Positions 9,541-27,998 of a stretch of 34,350 bases of DNA are shown here, piece after piece. This DNA is from Candidatus Parcubacteria bacterium (GTDB taxonomy: Bacteria; Patescibacteriota; Patescibacteriia; UBA1558; GWA2-36-10), in NCBI GenBank assembly GCA_002869235.1, contig PKTI01000047.1, forward strand, positions 4,092-38,441, in the 5' to 3' direction. Positions within the stretch are counted from its first letter, which is position 1. Every line of letters begins with the position of its first letter. The notes beneath the pieces are model-generated. The model did not search any database. It worked only from the letters and a program-made list of their open reading frames with translations, and was not told where the DNA came from. The position numbers were made by a program, and so were the translations under genes.

Positions 9541-12500
9541 ATGTTTAAAGCAAAAGTTTGGACACCCATAATAGCGGTTTTTCTAATAGCTGCTGTATTA
9601 CTGGGTTATTTTTATTTTGGCTTTGGTAAAAATTTGGTACCTGATACACCAGACAATTTTTCCAAGCTGGTCATCAACACGGCTTACGCACAGGACAATT
9701 TTGAAGTAGAAGCAGCCTCAATTGATAGTACAGGCATAGATAGCGGTACTACCTTTATGATCAAGAGTAAAGATGCGATTTCTAGCCTTGATTCTTTGGC
9801 TGATAATGTCAGATTTTATCCAGAAGTTGATTATGAAATTACCCAAATTGATGAGCACAATTTCAATGTAATTCCCAAAAACCCCTTGGAAACCAGAAAA
9901 GTTTATCGTCTAGCTATTGATTCAAAGTATATTGATGAAGATGGCCTTGAACAAAAAAGAGATTATTCTTGGGCCTTTCAAGTCAAGGATGAATTCAAGG
10001 TTTATGGTACTTTGCCTCGTGACAAGGCTACTAATGTTCCTACCAACACCGGTATTGAGCTCAATTTTAGTCACGAAAACGTCGTAAACTATGAAGAGAA
10101 TTTTAGCATTGAGCCAAAGGTAAACGGACGCTTTGAACTTCACAAAAGAACACTGGTTTTTGTACCAGAAAAATTGGATCCAGGAATGATTTATAAAATC
10201 ACCATGAAAAAAGGAGTAGGAGTTGATCAGAGCACAACAGCCTTATCAGAAGACTATTCTTTTTCTTTTGAAACCAGTCCTACCAACGAACAAAGAGAGC
10301 ATACGCCTAGTTCAAGTTTTGGCTTTAACGTAGAATTCAATGAATTTCCTGACACCATGGAGCCAGCTCTTTCCGTGAGGACTTACAATGTAGACCAAAC
10401 AGAGTTTCCAGTCAGAGTATATGCCTTCAAAAGTGTTGATAATTTTTTGACAGCACTGGAAAAGACAAATGATTATCCTTATTGGGCTAGTTATTCTAGA
10501 AGTGCCAACCAGGTTGATAAATCAAACTTACAGGAAATAGGAAACTATAATCTTTCTTTATCAGAATATGATAGAGCCAAGTACTTGGTTTTGCCAGATA
10601 CCTTGCCCAAGGGATTTTATTTGGTAGAAACAGAATACCAAGGCAGAAACAGTCAGGCTTATATCCAGGTTAGCAATGTAGCTGCTTTTTCTAGTATTAC
10701 AAACACAGACACCCTAGTCTGGGTAAATAGCCTAGATACAGGTGGGCCCGTAAATGACGCTACAGTACAAGTAGCTGGCACAAATGTTCAGGCTAAGACA
10801 AATGATCAAGGTGTAGCTACTTTTGATAGTCGTCAGGCATTTGCCATCAATGATGATAATCAGGAAAAAGCTAGAAAAAATAGATTTTTAAAAATTCAAT
10901 CTGCTGATTCTATAATGGTAGTACCATTTTGGTTGTATCAAGGTTATCTCAGTTCAAGTAGTAATACAGATTTTTATTGGCATCACTTCTATACCGATAG
11001 AACCATGTATCAGCCAACTGATATGATCAATTTTTGGACTTTTATAAAACCCAGAAATAGTCAGAGAATTAGTGGTAAGGCCAAAATACGTTTGACCAAT
11101 AGTCGTTATTACAATTATTATAATGAACCAATCCCTATAGTTGAACAAGAACTTGATCTTGATGCCAATAATACTGCTATAGGAAATTTAAAAATAGACA
11201 ACCTTACTCCTGGTGGTTATAGCCTACAGCTTTTGGTAGATGATGAAATTGTTTATAGCAAATACATTAGTATTCAGACATATACCAAGCCAGCTTACCA
11301 GATAGAGGTGACTCCACAAAAACGGGCAGTATTTGCTGGCGAAGATGTGGTAATGGATATAGAAAGTACATTTTTTGAAGGTACTCCAGTAGCTGATCTG
11401 GAATTAAAATATAACACTGACACGAAAATTATTACTGATCAGTTGGGTAGAGCTCAAGTAGTGTTGCCTACTTCATATACGGATTGTTCTATAAGTAGTG
11501 GCTATTGTAATTCGGTCACTTCAAAGGGAATAAACGTATCTCCTGTCAAAGGCGAAGAAGGAGAAATCACAGCTTATGCTAGCACTAGGGTCTATGGTCC
11601 TCATGTGATGGCTAATGTAAGATTCAACAAAGAAAAAGACAGTAGTCAGGCCACTATAACTACATCAGTAAATGATATAGACTTGGACAAGATAAATATA
11701 GATGGAGAATTTAATCCTCAGGCAGGACCGTCAGCTAACAAAAGTCTTCAAGCAAAAATTACAGAGGTTACTTATGAAAAAGAAGAAACAGGCGAGTATT
11801 ATGATTTTATCAATAAGATAGTTAGAAAAACTTATAAGTATAACAGGATTGAGACTCCATTTGGTGAGTATTCAGGTACTACAGATCAGAATGGTGAGCA
11901 TGTTTACAATCTTACAGTAGACAAGGATAAAAGTTATTACGTAAATGTTTCCGTAGACGATGGACAGGGTAGGCACGACGTGAAAAGAGCTTATCTTTAT
12001 TCACGTTATGCCCGCACTAGTAGTTACGACAGCTACCGTTTGGTACTAAAAGATACTTCTGATTATAATTTTGCTGTTGGTGAAAAAGTAGAGTTTGAAT
12101 TTTTGAACAATGAAGTACTTTTGCCAGAAGAAGATCAAAGAAATTATCTCTATTACAATTTGCAAAATGGTTTGATGGAATATCAAACCAGTAATAGCCC
12201 AGAATATACCTTCAACTTCAAGGCAGATCACATACCAAATATTTATTCCAAAGGTGTTTGGTTCAATGGTATAACTTATCATGTTAGCTCCAACTATAGA
12301 TATTTTTATGGCTTTAGTGGAGGTGGTAGTAGCCTAGTTGCCTTTGATGCTGAGAGCAAACGTTTGAATATTGATATTCAAACGGACAAGACGGATTATG
12401 TGCCTGGTGAGGATGTAAATATTTCTGTCAAAGTGACTGATCAAAATGGTCAGCCTGTTCAGTCTAGTGTAAATATCAATCTAGTTGACGAAGCTTATTA

Positions 12501-14919
12501 TCAGCTCAGACAGGAGAGTGTAGATACTCTAAATAGTATTTACAATGTGCGCTTGAGTTCAGGTGAGCTGACTCAATATAGTTCACATAAATCAGCCGAG
12601 GCTCTTGGAGCCGATTCTATGGCTGAAGGCGGTGGCTGCTTCTTGGCTGGTACCAAGATAAAGATGGCCGATGGCAGCCAAAAAAATATAGAAGATGTAC
12701 AAATTGGCGATGAAGTGCTTACCTTTTCTGATGAAAAAAATCATCAATTAACCTCAGCCAATGTAGTGGACACAATTTCTCATACAGTGGATGGCTATTT
12801 GGTCATCAATGGATACCTCAAGGTAACCCCAGAGCATAGAGTATTTGTAAATGGTGCTTGGCAGATGATAGGTGAGGCTCAGATAGGTGATTATTTGCTC
12901 AACGAAAAAGGAGAAGGGGTTTTGATTGAAAGCATTGAGGTGGTTATGGATACGGTCAAAGTTTATAATCTAAGCGTCGAACCATACAATACCTATATTG
13001 CCGATGGCATATATGTACACAACCAAAAAGGTGGTCCTCGTGAAGAGTTTGTTGATAATGCTTTGTTTACCTCTTTGGTGACCAATTCAAGTGGGCAGGC
13101 CAGTACTAGCTTTACTTTGCCGGACAACATCACTTCTTGGCGTATTACTAGTCAGGCTCTAAACAATAGTTTGTATGCTGGTTCAAATACAACTAACATC
13201 AATGTGTCTTTGCCAGTATTTGTAGAGCCCAGTTTTGCCAAAGAATATTTGGCCTCAGATGATCCCATAGTAAAGCTCAGAGCTTATGGCAAAGCTCTTA
13301 GTTCAGGAGACAATGTAGAGTTTTCTTTGTCAGCTGAAAGTCTTGATTTTTCCCAGGACAATATGAGTGGCAAAGCCTTTCAAGCAAATTATATTGACCT
13401 ACCAACCCTTAGTTTGGGACAACACAAAATAAATTCAACTGTAGAATTTGCTGATTATAAAGACACAGTCATAAAACCTATTGAAGTAGTAGAATCAAGA
13501 TTAAGAGAAAGTATTCAAAATTTTTATACACTAGAAAAAGGTCTTCAGCCTCAGGGTAGTGAGCAGTATAGAACCAACTTGACATTTAGCGACAGGAATC
13601 AGGGTATGCTCTACCGTGACCTTAGATGGTTGTCATGGACATACGGTGATAGAGTAGATCAAGAATTGTCACGCGTCTTGGCTAGGGACATGCTAGAAGA
13701 GTATTTTGATGAAACCCCATACTATAATTCAAAATTTGAATCTGGTAATTATCAACTCAATGATGGCGGCATAGCTCTTTTGCCTTATAGTGGTTCAGAA
13801 TTTGAATTGAGTGCTCGCTTGGCTTATGTAGCAGCTGATGAATTTGATAAAATAAATTTGGCCAATTATTTTTATGGAATATACAATTCTGAAAATTCCA
13901 ATCAAGAACAGGTGGCTCTGTCTTTGTTTGGTCTAGCCAGTTTAAATGAGCCAATACTCTTACCTCTTCAGGCTTTTGCCAAATTGGATACTTTGACGCC
14001 AAAAGAAAAACTTTATGTTGGTCTAGGTGCTTACAGACTTGGCGATATTGAATTGGCACGACAGCTTTATTTTGAGGTTATGGGACAAAATGCTGAAGAA
14101 ATGGGCGATATGTATACTAGATTGAAAGTTGGCGAAGACGAGGATAGTTATTTGGAGCACACTTCTTTGGCAGCAATACTATCTGCAGCTGTCAATGATA
14201 AATATCATGAATCATTGTGGCAATATGTTCAAGATCATCGTAGCAAAGATATATTGCTTAATTTGGAAAAATTGAGTTATGTTTCTGGACTATTACCAAA
14301 CTTGAACCCAGGAGAAGTGAAGTTTAAGGTAAAAGTCGCTGGTCAAGAAATAGAAAAAACACTGTCTCGTGGTGCTACCTATAGAATTTCAGTTAGCCCA
14401 GAGGATTTACAAAATATTGAGTTTTCTGATATTGAGGGTAGAGTTGGTTTAGTCACTTCTTATGAAGTGCCTATGGTATCTTTGCCAGCAGGAGGGAGTG
14501 ATTATTTGAATCTTCGTAAGGAGTATTATGTAGACGGTGAAAAGACCAACAACTTCAAGGAAAATGATTTGGTAGAAATTAGGATTTATCCTGGCATTGC
14601 CAATGACGCGGTAGAGGGCTCTTATCAGATTACCGACTTAGTTCCTAGTGGTATGTCACCAATAACAGGATACTATTATAGAGGAAGAACCAATCGTTAT
14701 GATTCATGCCTTCGTTATCCTTATAATATTGATGGCCAGAGGGTAAAGTTTATAGTCAACAATAGATGGACAAGCAATTGTAGTGATTATTTCAGATATT
14801 ATGCTAGAGTAGTCAATCCAGGTACCTATACATCTGAGCCAATCTTAATACAAAATTATAAAGACAGTTCAATTTTTGATTATTCTGATAGTAGTCAAGT
14901 TATTATTGATCGTCCATGA
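9541..14919 (+). CDS. Alpha-2-macroglobulin-like surface protein with embedded Hint domain
   Basis: The 1792-residue protein is anchored by an N-terminal membrane helix (about 8-28). Two Ig-like (Big_5) domains cover about 60-250, and an MG2 domain with YTDRTMYQPTDMINFWTF lies near 480-575. An MG6-type segment (INLVDEAYYQL) lies near 980. A 129-residue Hint domain (C1033-N1161) comes next, followed at once by the A2M family domain (FTLPDNITSWRITSQAL, about 1190-1206). The Hint domain therefore sits where macroglobulins carry the bait region. The place of the thioester motif (YGCxEQ) reads TYGDRVDQELS (1367-1377) without cysteine, so covalent trapping is unlikely. Bacterial members are thought to trap proteases near the envelope. 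No pbpC is adjacent, unlike the YfhM/PbpC pair. The stop overlaps the next gene (ATGA). Confidence 0.92.
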   Translation: MFKAKVWTPIIAVFLIAAVLLGYFYFGFGKNLVPDTPDNFSKLVINTAYAQDNFEVEAASIDSTGIDSGTTFMIKSKDAISSLDSLADNVRFYPEVDYEITQIDEHNFNVIPKNPLETRKVYRLAIDSKYIDEDGLEQKRDYSWAFQVKDEFKVYGTLPRDKATNVPTNTGIELNFSHENVVNYEENFSIEPKVNGRFELHKRTLVFVPEKLDPGMIYKITMKKGVGVDQSTTALSEDYSFSFETSPTNEQREHTPSSSFGFNVEFNEFPDTMEPALSVRTYNVDQTEFPVRVYAFKSVDNFLTALEKTNDYPYWASYSRSANQVDKSNLQEIGNYNLSLSEYDRAKYLVLPDTLPKGFYLVETEYQGRNSQAYIQVSNVAAFSSITNTDTLVWVNSLDTGGPVNDATVQVAGTNVQAKTNDQGVATFDSRQAFAINDDNQEKARKNRFLKIQSADSIMVVPFWLYQGYLSSSSNTDFYWHHFYTDRTMYQPTDMINFWTFIKPRNSQRISGKAKIRLTNSRYYNYYNEPIPIVEQELDLDANNTAIGNLKIDNLTPGGYSLQLLVDDEIVYSKYISIQTYTKPAYQIEVTPQKRAVFAGEDVVMDIESTFFEGTPVADLELKYNTDTKIITDQLGRAQVVLPTSYTDCSISSGYCNSVTSKGINVSPVKGEEGEITAYASTRVYGPHVMANVRFNKEKDSSQATITTSVNDIDLDKINIDGEFNPQAGPSANKSLQAKITEVTYEKEETGEYYDFINKIVRKTYKYNRIETPFGEYSGTTDQNGEHVYNLTVDKDKSYYVNVSVDDGQGRHDVKRAYLYSRYARTSSYDSYRLVLKDTSDYNFAVGEKVEFEFLNNEVLLPEEDQRNYLYYNLQNGLMEYQTSNSPEYTFNFKADHIPNIYSKGVWFNGITYHVSSNYRYFYGFSGGGSSLVAFDAESKRLNIDIQTDKTDYVPGEDVNISVKVTDQNGQPVQSSVNINLVDEAYYQLRQESVDTLNSIYNVRLSSGELTQYSSHKSAEALGADSMAEGGGCFLAGTKIKMADGSQKNIEDVQIGDEVLTFSDEKNHQLTSANVVDTISHTVDGYLVINGYLKVTPEHRVFVNGAWQMIGEAQIGDYLLNEKGEGVLIESIEVVMDTVKVYNLSVEPYNTYIADGIYVHNQKGGPREEFVDNALFTSLVTNSSGQASTSFTLPDNITSWRITSQALNNSLYAGSNTTNINVSLPVFVEPSFAKEYLASDDPIVKLRAYGKALSSGDNVEFSLSAESLDFSQDNMSGKAFQANYIDLPTLSLGQHKINSTVEFADYKDTVIKPIEVVESRLRESIQNFYTLEKGLQPQGSEQYRTNLTFSDRNQGMLYRDLRWLSWTYGDRVDQELSRVLARDMLEEYFDETPYYNSKFESGNYQLNDGGIALLPYSGSEFELSARLAYVAADEFDKINLANYFYGIYNSENSNQEQVALSLFGLASLNEPILLPLQAFAKLDTLTPKEKLYVGLGAYRLGDIELARQLYFEVMGQNAEEMGDMYTRLKVGEDEDSYLEHTSLAAILSAAVNDKYHESLWQYVQDHRSKDILLNLEKLSYVSGLLPNLNPGEVKFKVKVAGQEIEKTLSRGATYRISVSPEDLQNIEFSDIEGRVGLVTSYEVPMVSLPAGGSDYLNLRKEYYVDGEKTNNFKENDLVEIRIYPGIANDAVEGSYQITDLVPSGMSPITGYYYRGRTNRYDSCLRYPYNIDGQRVKFIVNNRWTSNCSDYFRYYARVVNPGTYTSEPILIQNYKDSSIFDYSDSSQVIIDRP
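12637..13023 (+). other. Hint (intein-like) domain within the macroglobulin-like protein
   Basis: It begins with the block-A signature CFLAGTKIKMADGS (C1033 as splice-site nucleophile), contains GDEVLTFS, and has block B TPEH (T1096, H1099). It ends NTYIADGIYVHN (H1160, N1161). No homing endonuclease is present. The residue after the C-terminal Asn is Gln, not Cys, Ser or Thr, as in A-type bacterial intein-like domains. Cleavage at either end, rather than clean splicing, is therefore the likelier reaction. Confidence 0.93.
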
Positions 14920-25081: not shown

Positions 25082-26416
25082 ATGGAGAGAGAAAGGATTT
25101 TGATCCTGGGAGCCGCAGGACGCGACTTCCACAACTTCAACGTGCTGTTCCGAGACAACGATGACTTCGAGGTGGTCGGCTTTACCGCCGCCCAGATTCC
25201 GGACATCGAGGGACGGGTCTACCCGGCTGAACTGGCCGGCAAGCTCTACTCGGAAGGGATTCCCATCTTCGACGAGGCCGAGCTGATCGACAAGATCAAC
25301 GACCTGGGAGTCGACGGCTGCGTCTTCTCCTACTCGGACGTGTCGGACAGCTACGTCATGCGTCTGGCCCAGCGGGTCAACGCGACCGGCGCCGATTTCG
25401 TGATGGTGGGGGCCTACTCCACCATGATCGACAGCCAGAAGCCGGTCGTGGCCATCTGCGCCGTTCGCACCGGTTGCGGCAAGTCGCAGACCACCCGCTA
25501 CGTCTGCCAGCTCCTCGAGCAGCAGGGTCATCGGGTTGTGCCGATCCGTCACCCCATGCCCTACGGTGATCTGGCCAAGCAGGCTGTGCAGCGCTTCGGC
25601 GATGTCAGCCACCTGGAAGAGCATCAGTGCACCATCGAGGAGATGGAGGAGTACGAGCCGCATCTGGCCGAGGGCCGCATCATCTACGCCGGTGTCGATT
25701 ACGGCGCCATCCTGACCGAGGCCGAGAAGGAGGCCGACATCATCATCTGGGACGGCGGCAACAACGACACCTCTTTCTACACGCCCGACATCCTGATCGT
25801 GGTGGTCGATCCTCTTCGCGTCGGCCACGAGCTGTCCTACTACCCCGGTTACCAAAACTTGTTGATGGCCGACGTGGTCATCGTCAACAAGGTGGACACC
25901 GCCTCGGAGGCCGACGTCGACCAGCTGTGTCGTACCATCCGCAAGGAAAACCCCCTGGCCAAGATCATCCAGTGCGAGTCGCCCGTGTCCGTCGATCAGC
26001 CGGAGCTGATCAAGGACAAGTGCGTGCTGGTGATCGAGGACGGGCCGACCTGCACCCACGGTGGCATGGACTTCGGCGCCGGCATGGTGGCCGCTCGGCA
26101 GATGGGCTGCAAGATCGTCGATCCCAGGCCTTGGTTGCAGGGCAAGCTCAGGGACACCTTCCACATCTATCCCAATATCGGGTCGCTTTTGCCCGCCATG
26201 GGTTACGGTGCGGAGCAGGTGGCTGATCTCAAGGCGACAATCGATGCCATGGCCGAGGCCGGCGTCATCGACGCGGTGGTGATCGGCACGCCCATCGATC
26301 TGAGTCGAGTCATCGAGATGCCCTTGCCTGCGGCACGGGTCACCTACAGGCTCGAAGAGCTCGATCCTCAACTGGACAAGTTCCTGCAACAGCGTATCTC
26401 GACCCCGGCTTCCTAG
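25082..26416 (+). CDS. P-loop protein resembling cyclic 2,3-diphosphoglycerate synthetase
   Basis: The 444-residue product has an N-terminal Rossmann-like part (ILILGAAGRDFHNFNVLFRD, 6-25), then a P-loop AVRTGCGKS (127-135). An acidic strand IIWDGGNND (221-229) and an NKVD motif (269-272) follow, as in P-loop GTPases and the cyclic 2,3-diphosphoglycerate synthetase family. Archaeal CpgS makes the osmolyte cyclic 2,3-diphosphoglycerate with ATP; bacterial relatives are mostly uncharacterised and often named GTPase. The gene is the most G+C-rich of the window and stands alone between an AT-rich promoter and a terminator, which suggests transfer. The start follows from the GAAGGAGA ribosome site. 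Family assignment is fairly firm; the reaction in this organism is unproven. Confidence 0.85.
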   Translation: MERERILILGAAGRDFHNFNVLFRDNDDFEVVGFTAAQIPDIEGRVYPAELAGKLYSEGIPIFDEAELIDKINDLGVDGCVFSYSDVSDSYVMRLAQRVNATGADFVMVGAYSTMIDSQKPVVAICAVRTGCGKSQTTRYVCQLLEQQGHRVVPIRHPMPYGDLAKQAVQRFGDVSHLEEHQCTIEEMEEYEPHLAEGRIIYAGVDYGAILTEAEKEADIIIWDGGNNDTSFYTPDILIVVVDPLRVGHELSYYPGYQNLLMADVVIVNKVDTASEADVDQLCRTIRKENPLAKIIQCESPVSVDQPELIKDKCVLVIEDGPTCTHGGMDFGAGMVAARQMGCKIVDPRPWLQGKLRDTFHIYPNIGSLLPAMGYGAEQVADLKATIDAMAEAGVIDAVVIGTPIDLSRVIEMPLPAARVTYRLEELDPQLDKFLQQRISTPAS

Positions 26417-26499: not shown

Positions 26500-26531
26500 A
26501 AAAATCCCCCGCCCTAAGGCAGGAGATTTTT
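26500..26531 (-). terminator. Terminator of the DsbA-like gene
   Basis: The pairing of AAAATC with GATTTT and GCC with GGC around CTAA gives a long imperfect hairpin with T-runs in the minus-strand direction, about ten bases after the stop codon. Confidence 0.75.
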
Positions 26532-26541
26532 GAACTGTATA

Positions 26542-27309
26542 TTAACTAGCAAATAATATATCTAGATATTGCCAGAAAACTTCGTTACCACCTAGTTCAC
26601 CAGCACATTCGGTTGCTTCTGCTTTATGGAAAGCATCTGGGTGGAGTTGTTCTAATGGGAAGTGACGATATACCCAAGCAACTTTATCACCATATTGGTC
26701 CATAAGCTGTGTCATGGTGTCATGATGACGTCCACAATATGGGCAGTCGATGTCAGAAAATTCAATCAACACAACATCAGCATCTGGATTTCCTCTTACC
26801 CAATCAACTTCTGGGTCCATAGGAACTATTTGAATGTTTGGGTCAGCACTGTCTATGGTGTTGCCTGCTAGCAAGTCATCAATCAATGATTTGAGTGAAG
26901 CATATGGCAAAGCACCTGGTACAGCTACTTTGGTATTACCAGCAATCAACACATTATGTGGAGTGCCTTGACCACCAGAAGCGGCTGCTTGTGTAATATG
27001 ACTCTCGATCTTGTTTTCTTGTTCTCCAGAGTTGAGACAACTAGCAAATGTATCTCCGTCTAGTCCTAGCTCAACTGCTGTATCAACCAAATCTTGGTCC
27101 AAACTGCCGACTACCTCGGTGTCTCCACCTTGGTATTTTTTGGCAGCATCGTTTTTTCCAAACTTGATTCCATCACCACTTAGCATCATGCCAAGTAAAA
27201 TAAAGAAGCCAATGACAAACATGACACCTATACCTGTAAACAGTCCAGCTTTGAAAGCTGATTTAGGATTCATATTGTCGATCGCCCCTTTTTGACGATG
27301 ATTATCCAT
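26542..27309 (-). CDS. Membrane-anchored DsbA-like protein with swapped halves
   Basis: The 255-residue product has an N-terminal membrane helix (about 18-43) and a periplasm-side thioredoxin-like part. In ordinary DsbA-like (Thioredoxin_4) proteins the CxxC half comes first and the half with the cis-proline comes last. Here the order is reversed. Residues 70-149 carry the usual C-terminal half (VDTAVELGLDGDTFASCL, cis-Pro motif GTP at 115-117, PGALPYASLKSLIDDLL). Residues 170-255 carry the usual N-terminal half (VLIEFSDIDCPYC with C189/C192, WVYRHFPLEQLHPDA, ECAGELGG, FWQYLDILFAS), and the protein ends where the second half would normally begin. A second cysteine pair, C91 and C235, is also present. 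The start has a good ribosome site (AAAGGAG). Confidence 0.9.
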   Translation of the reverse strand: MDNHRQKGAIDNMNPKSAFKAGLFTGIGVMFVIGFFILLGMMLSGDGIKFGKNDAAKKYQGGDTEVVGSLDQDLVDTAVELGLDGDTFASCLNSGEQENKIESHITQAAASGGQGTPHNVLIAGNTKVAVPGALPYASLKSLIDDLLAGNTIDSADPNIQIVPMDPEVDWVRGNPDADVVLIEFSDIDCPYCGRHHDTMTQLMDQYGDKVAWVYRHFPLEQLHPDAFHKAEATECAGELGGNEVFWQYLDILFAS

Positions 27310-27326: not shown

Positions 27327-27406
27327 TTTTAAGAACGAGGGTGTATTCTTAAAAAATTATTTATTAAGAGTGCTCATAGTATATCATTTTTTATTTTGAC
27401 TTTCAA
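27327..27406 (-). promoter_or_regulatory. Promoter and leader hairpin of the DsbA-like gene
   Basis: On the minus strand the -35 is TTGAAA (27401-27406), the spacer is 17 bp and the -10 is TATACT (27378-27383). The leader of about 60 nt holds a 9-bp hairpin (TTTTAAGAA/TTCTTAAAA, 27327-27354) just upstream of the ribosome site, which could influence translation. Confidence 0.7.
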
Positions 27407-27426
27407 ATGTTTTTTTCCACTTACTA

Positions 27427-27455
27427 TTGACAAATATCAAAATGTATGCTATTAT
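27427..27455 (+). promoter_or_regulatory. Promoter of the 3D-domain gene
   Basis: The -35 TTGACA (27427-27432), 17-bp spacer, and -10 TATTAT (27450-27455) preceded by TGC form a strong extended promoter. Exactly six bases separate it from the ATG at 27462. Confidence 0.8.
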
Positions 27456-27461
27456 AATTAT

Positions 27462-27998
27462 ATGATCCCAACAAATAGGGATTTTTTAGTTTTAAAGATT
27501 TATATGAAATCAATTAAACAAGCCATTGAATATAGCTCGAGAAAGTATCTAAAACCATTATTTTTATTGGTTAGTATTACTTTTTTGAGTCTGCCAAATA
27601 TAAGTATTTCACAAGCAATTGAAGACAAAAATGCCGGTCCTAGGCCAAAATTGGCTATAAAAGCCTATTATGATGGGCCTACATTACCAGAAGTTGGACC
27701 TCGTCCAGCTCGTAGAACCATGTATATCAGTGTTACGGCTTACAATAGTTTGCCAGGACAAACTGATGATACCCCTTTTATTACAGCCTCAGGCACTCGT
27801 ACTCGTGATGGTGTATTGGCTGCTAATTTCTTGCCAATCGGTACAGTTGTCCGTTTTCCAGAACAATTTGGTGACAATGAGTTTTTAGTAGAGGATCGTA
27901 TGAATGCTAGATATTACTATAAAGCTGATATTTGGATGGAAAACTACGAAGATGCTAAGAATTTTGGTTCAAAATTCTTAAAAATGGAAATTTTATAA
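27462..27998 (+). CDS. Secreted 3D-domain (double-psi beta-barrel) protein
   Basis: The frame has ATG codons at 27462 and 27504. I chose 27462 because the promoter predicts transcription to start on that A, as in other leaderless genes here. Starting at 27504 would give a more ordinary signal peptide (MKSIKQAIEY onward, ending ISISQA), so the true start is open. The mature part carries a 3D/RlpA-like double-psi beta-barrel: YISVTAYNSLPGQTDD, the TASGTRTRDG loop, ANFLPIGTVVRFP, then FLVEDRMNARYYYKADIWM with the acidic residues of the fold. Such domains occur in cell-wall lytic enzymes (MltA, Rpf, YuiC families) and act outside the membrane. Residues 70-95 are proline-rich. The gene is a single unit ended by a terminator. 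Confidence 0.85.
   Translation: MIPTNRDFLVLKIYMKSIKQAIEYSSRKYLKPLFLLVSITFLSLPNISISQAIEDKNAGPRPKLAIKAYYDGPTLPEVGPRPARRTMYISVTAYNSLPGQTDDTPFITASGTRTRDGVLAANFLPIGTVVRFPEQFGDNEFLVEDRMNARYYYKADIWMENYEDAKNFGSKFLKMEIL

Follow-up and report, generated by a model that had tools for sequence, protein, structure and literature searches.

The window, a stretch of 34,350 nucleotides of Candidatus Parcubacteria DNA, carries a gene whose product is very likely a DsbA-type thiol-disulfide oxidoreductase, anchored in the membrane and extracytoplasmic, with a catalytic domain that is circularly permuted by nature, although no activity data are available. The window lies within contig C46 of a 967-kb draft genome that comprises 59 contigs and is 97% complete. 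The encoded protein (255 residues; 268 in the stop-to-stop frame) begins with a membrane anchor, continues with the half of the domain that bears the cis-proline (the back half, made up of three helices, two strands and a last helix) and ends, directly before the stop codon, with the half that bears the CPYC motif (the front half; Table 1). The canonical order of the family, beta-alpha-beta followed by helices and then beta-beta-alpha, is not met; the order is rotated, and a linker of about 20 residues connects what were originally the C- and N-terminal ends of the domain. The anchor region resembles that of the canonical orthologs that occupy this locus in relatives, with 62–65% identity over matches 3–55 and 2–53 (G017 and G019). 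Four terminator-like hairpins occur in the region, against 0.7 expected from shuffles, and one of them lies just past the stop codon.

Table 1 Features of the permuted dsbA locus in window coordinates.
Feature	Residues	Position	Strand	Basis or remark
Gene for permuted DsbA-like protein	255 in total	26542..27309	-	Open reading frame present at this place
N-terminal membrane anchor	15–43	27181..27267	-	AlphaFold2 helix 15–43
Disordered tether	45–67	27109..27177	-	pLDDT <50
DsbA back half	69–147	26869..27105	-	DSBA profile match and predicted elements
Cys91, second cysteine pair, back-half partner	91	27037..27039	-	Kept in 39/39 permuted rows
GTP cis-proline loop	115–117	26959..26967	-	Invariant in 21/21; proline in 39/39
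New linker	148–168	26806..26868	-	Lies between the two half-domain matches
DsbA front half	169–255	26545..26805	-	Thioredoxin_4 profile 5–87 at residues 169–253
Catalytic CPYC	189–192	26734..26745	-	Sequence and alignment of relatives
Cys235, second cysteine pair, front-half partner	235	26605..26607	-	Kept in 39/39 permuted rows
Terminator-like hairpin past the stop codon		26500..26531	-	14 pairs, 10 bases from the stop
GC-rich ORF		25082–26416	+	CobW/CbiA-like nucleotide-binding matches
Divergently transcribed neighbour		27396..27998	+	Marker of the orthologous locus in family f1

The reversed order of the half-domains is shown by profile searches. The back of the Pfam DSBA profile (positions 122–190 of 191) matches residues 71–143, whereas the front of Thioredoxin_4 (5–87 of 165) matches the later front half. 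In native order, the protein scores 58.4 bits with Thioredoxin_4 (cut-off 23.2) and 50.4 bits with DSBA (cut-off 25.6), each match being split in two stretches. By contrast, joining residues ~161–255 to residues 66–150 yields a single Thioredoxin_4 match that spans profile positions 5–165 of 165 with 67.8 bits; a canonical paralog encoded in the genome reaches 73.5 bits across positions 3–164, and aligns to the permuted protein as two separate pieces in opposite order. Half-domain HMMs, the seeds of which included the window protein's own halves, place the back half at residues 83–162 (E=4e-37) and the front half at 171–267 (E=1e-52) of the 268-residue frame, far above chance. Re-joining restores the family order across the whole domain, and the criterion for a circular permutant is thereby satisfied.

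AlphaFold2, supplied with an alignment of 21 permuted relatives, returned one compact domain with pLDDT block means of 96–98 across residues 71–250; the anchor and tether probably bring down the pTM, which is 0.72. The back half is predicted to form helices 69–80, 85–94 and 98–110, strands 118–123 and 126–131 and helix 136–147, and the front half strands 170–173 and 179–185, helix 190–206, strand 210–216 and helix 226–254. This element order, HHH-EE-H-EE-H-E-H, is an exact rotation of that in the canonical paralog, EE-H-E-HHHH-EE-H. The CPYC motif sits at the start of helix 190–206, the cis-proline loop precedes strand 118–123, and a thioredoxin fold with an inserted helical cap is recognizable, by prediction only. 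Foldseek against the PDB ranked first an engineered circular permutant of E. coli DsbA (1un2, E 5.7e-4), which in VIA-align was also the sole chain of 999 to reach Z≥8 (Z 13.8, 162 residues aligned, rmsd 3.1), its residues 4–185 aligning linearly to residues 69–255 of the model. For most natural DsbAs among these chains the alignment is confined to the front half of the model, whereas the canonical paralog, run as a control, gave Z≥8 for 505 of 991 chains and aligned to natural DsbAs over the full domain (best 4n30, Z 23.1). The permuted domain is hence predicted by the model to adopt the same compact fold as its parent.

The permuted order is also found in relatives. A search of 53 genomes, the host's own and those of relatives, recovered two further full-length permuted proteins, from G020 (47% identity) and G014 (44%). 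A first scan of GTDB contigs with a single-sequence query found no relatives; the contig scan used here retained the best 80 of 529 relatives, a set biased toward the permuted order. Across 182 loci, half-domain HMMs applied to ORFs of at least 60 residues distinguished 46 distinct permuted and 101 distinct canonical ORFs. Permuted loci occur within the Patescibacteria in Komeilibacteria, Uhrbacteria, Nomurabacteria, Woesebacteria, Moraniibacteriota, Kaiserbacteria, Elulimicrobium, Paceibacterota, Microgenomates and Parcubacteria, the remaining permuted loci of the GTDB contig scan belonging to bacteria without a group label; one genome (G355) has two permuted copies (L161 and L165). Among 379 genomes drawn from the phylum, 22 had a match at E≤1e-50 (21 permuted, 1 canonical), and among 380 drawn from the class, 21 did (13 permuted, 8 canonical). 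The phylum genomes were drawn evenly. The two draws overlap in some genomes, and permuted rows served to build the profile; these counts are lower bounds, because divergent members may fall short of the cut-off. A membrane-spanning-like segment precedes the domain in 45 of the 46 permuted ORFs, and the remaining one starts at a contig end. In the record of one locus (L075), part of the anchor and tether reads X owing to masked bases.

The candidates checked from outside the Patescibacteria did not survive inspection. On plasmids, single tblastn pieces had seemed to cover both halves, but the three candidates checked of 1390 records (L182, L183 and L184) proved canonical by half-domain HMMs, and the spans of single BLAST pieces are therefore unreliable. 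A relative on a viral contig (L142) likewise has the canonical order.

Conservation of the functional residues is shown by alignment. Both catalytic cysteines, the cis-proline and the second cysteine pair are present in all 39 permuted rows aligned (of the 46 later known). Of 99 canonical rows, 87 have all of these features and the remaining 12 have neither cysteine of the second pair. The permuted order brings Cys91 and Cys235, which make up this pair, close to the new N and C termini of the domain; they are likely to form a structural disulfide, which is inferred and not shown. The chain is opened within the helical cap, after the helix of the ECAG cysteine (FWxxxD) and before the helix preceding the SCL cysteine, and the same loop is cut in 45 of 46 permuted ORFs. 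Some of the permuted proteins (L064, L065, L075, L079 and L148) retain at their C terminus TPSNNGLD-like loop residues resembling those of canonical relatives. In L151 (genome G280, 1429–2211), the first back-half helix (LHDIAVEMDL) is C-terminal and absent from the N-terminal side, so that the cut falls one helix later.

The initial annotation, made from sequence alone, had read the protein as a circular permutant, with the cis-proline half first and the CPYC half last, a frame that stops at FWQYLDILFAS, a terminator about ten bases beyond the stop with no remainder downstream, and two parts that together make one complete domain. Each of these points held: Pfam and the half-domain HMMs agree on the swap, the frame ends as described, the hairpin at 26531–26500 is in place with no back-half remnant found within 400 bases downstream of the ORF, and the re-joined halves fill the Thioredoxin_4 profile. 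It had also suggested aligning the re-joined halves with family profiles, predicting the structure and searching related genomes; all three were done, giving one end-to-end match better than that in native order, one confident compact domain, and the reversed order in relatives. Circular permutation is thus supported by sequence, by predicted structure with a canonical control, and by relatives.

Family f1, of which 21 genomes were surveyed, holds both half-orders at one chromosomal locus. The divergent neighbour (Table 1) adjoins dsbA1 in 15 f1 genomes, in three of which dsbA1 is permuted (G014, G020 and the window's own genome, G000) and in 12 canonical. In G014, G020 and most canonical relatives, dsbA1 is followed by dsbA2 and then VKOR. 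The window locus has neither dsbA2 nor VKOR, and in their place a GC-rich, GTPase-like ORF lies on the opposite strand; with ~60% GC, against a contig mostly near 35%, this ORF may possibly have been acquired horizontally.

In three permuted relatives of family f75 (L150, L154 and L157), VKOR lies directly downstream of the permuted gene, with no other dsbA in between. Downstream of two more permuted genes, L008 and L009, VKOR follows dsbA2; all five cases were confirmed with Pfam. VKOR was present in the 1.2 kb downstream of only 5 of 46 permuted genes, immediately adjacent in 3 cases, though many loci are short. That some permuted genes directly precede VKOR suggests a DsbA-type oxidase function, which remains an inference. 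A thiol-disulfide oxidoreductase family enriched in CPR bacteria has VKOR among its most frequent neighbours, and a role in pilin folding has been suggested for it (PMC6744442). In the window's genome, no match to VKOR or DsbB was found at E≤0.001, and a single DsbD_TM match lies on C49; several DsbA-like genes are nonetheless kept. Because of this, the re-oxidizing partner in this genome is undetermined and a reductase or isomerase role is open.

The half-order changed more than once. In a tree of 138 rows and 162 columns (canonical row L036, 624–1247, was left out as too short), the order label requires 19 changes, of which well-supported branches force only 2, and 60 of 135 inner branches are poorly supported. 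Forcing all 39 permuted rows into one clade costs 136.65 log units (AU p=0.0014). In a more careful tree of 38 rows, uniting five permuted rows (the f1 trio, L064 and L151) costs 68.2 (AU p=1.9e-5), and these five are grouped in 0% of 200 bootstrap trees. Since the AU tests reject one permuted clade, the order changed at least twice; we regard this as very likely, with the provisos that gains cannot be distinguished from reversals and that tree noise and horizontal transfer may complicate the picture. The f1 trio as a single clade was not rejected (p=0.19, against p=0.67 for the quick tree), and the quick tree itself scored 16.1 log units worse than the one so constrained, so the quick search was not exhaustive. 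The trio may possibly stem from one event; separate events within it cannot be demonstrated.

How the permutation arose is less clear. The two main models of circular permutation are permutation by duplication, and fission and fusion (PMC3320104). The initial annotation had favoured tandem duplication followed by loss of the outer halves, a route that is not shown: only AB and BA arrangements, and no ABAB or BAB intermediates, were found among the 182 loci. Six-frame pieces from 400 bases either side of the 39 permuted ORFs contained no back-half match, the front-half matches being those of the neighbouring dsbA2 in L008 and L009 and an insignificant one in L079 (E 1.3). In the f1 trio the second cysteine pair is represented in both halves, but it is missing from the dsbA2 neighbours examined; a duplicated dsbA1 itself is therefore the likelier substrate, by inference.

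In the proposed mechanism, the permuted chain would fold to an ordinary thioredoxin fold with helical cap, bringing the cis-proline opposite CPYC, and a Cys91–Cys235 disulfide would pin the new chain ends together. Substrate binding at the cis-proline loop and exchange through the CxxC motif are established for the DsbA family. With the fold and active site of DsbA, the protein would be expected to carry out this usual exchange, which was not measured here; its likely work would be disulfide exchange with secreted proteins, and VKOR would re-oxidize the enzyme in those relatives that possess it. Because the membrane tether remains N-terminal, the domain is suspended by its helical cap rather than by strand 1. 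The initial annotation had placed the anchor on the opposite side of the fold; attachment at the cap follows from the element order, but the orientation to the membrane was not measured. A tether entering at the cap may turn the active site relative to the membrane in a way that suits a membrane partner, which is an inference. It is equally conceivable that it is, or is not, the case that Patescibacteria repeatedly and independently permuted one anchored DsbA, nearly always at the same cap loop, under likely selection for hanging the enzyme from its cap with the active site toward a membrane partner such as VKOR.

Of the alternatives, the one that survives best concerns function. The protein may possibly be permuted yet no longer an oxidase, acting as a reductase or isomerase fed by a DsbD/CcdA-like protein, as the absence of a VKOR or DsbB match and the single DsbD_TM match in its genome would allow; against this, three related genomes from a different family have VKOR immediately after the permuted gene, and the f1 relatives G014 and G020 have the dsbA1-dsbA2-VKOR array. 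It is very unlikely that the permutation happened only once, long ago, and was inherited vertically, with noise accounting for the scatter in the trees. The short alignment, the many poorly supported branches, the failure to reject the f1 trio as a clade and the shared cut loop speak for it, but the AU tests reject one permuted clade, both orders occur at one f1 locus, and L151 is cut differently. Equally improbable is a chance fusion of half-domains of different origin, or a pairing of halves between two chains. The nearest canonical rows by identity often differ between the two halves, and a domain-swapped dimer remains possible insofar as a monomer model is unable to exclude it; however, the re-joined halves make one Pfam domain end to end, the predicted monomer is closed and matches the engineered permutant, and the second cysteine pair is distributed over both halves in every permuted row aligned. 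An assembly or annotation artefact, a canonical dsbA misjoined or broken in a draft of 59 contigs next to a GC-rich ORF, is all but excluded by G014 and G020, which share both order and locus on contigs of different projects, and by 46 distinct permuted ORFs with conserved catalytic residues.

A natural, anchored circular permutant of DsbA, the reading preferred here, has its closest counterpart in the laboratory. Permutants of E. coli DsbA have been made both at random and by design (Hennecke 1999 and Manjasetty 2004, via PMC3281007, PMC12667903, PMC2213659 and PMC2395249), and one of them, cpDsbA Q100T99 (1un2), shares the order of parts and the fold, both proteins being cut in the helical cap. 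The engineered protein is, however, man-made, soluble and only ~15% identical, and the natural protein adds an anchor, the linker and a second cysteine pair. The canonical anchored DsbA of Patescibacteria (fam000318, PMC6744442), to which the canonical relatives studied here are inferred to belong, has in common the anchor, CxxC, cis-proline, second pair and VKOR neighbourhood, and occupies the same locus in 12 f1 genomes, but with the canonical half order; no mention of permutation was found in PMC6744442. Closest in sequence to the front half among solved structures is Pseudomonas aeruginosa DsbA2 (4n30; 31% identity, E 1e-11), which like other natural DsbAs has the canonical order and aligns to the front half only (92 residues). 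UGGT chains also appear among the VIA matches of the model (Z 5.6–7.5); their TRXL1 is a DsbA-like domain with helices before the thioredoxin part, but the rearrangement differs from that of permuted DsbA (PMC8024514, PMC7687155). Circular permutations occur among thioredoxin-like folds generally (PMC3091736), and the open-licence PMC literature searched yielded no account of a natural permuted DsbA, in Patescibacteria or elsewhere.

As a rule, the natural circular permutants that are known are pairs of families that are old and distant from each other. Here both orders occur at one locus within one family, with at least two changes in the phylum, making the origin and cost of the permutation directly testable and linking a textbook enzyme that was permuted by hand to a set of natural permutants. 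If repeated permutation at the cap loop is true, it would constitute a natural and recurrent counterpart of the laboratory experiment on E. coli DsbA. Where searches or annotation take domains to be collinear, permuted DsbAs will be listed as two partial matches or as truncated DsbAs.

Elsewhere in the window, positions 9541–14919 (+) encode a 1792-residue alpha-2-macroglobulin-like protein with a HINT/intein-like domain at residues ~1025–1161, between the MG2/bait-region and A2M domains (Pfam PT-HINT, 8.9e-12). This domain opens with a cysteine and closes with ...VHNQ, and splicing or cleavage is therefore conceivable.
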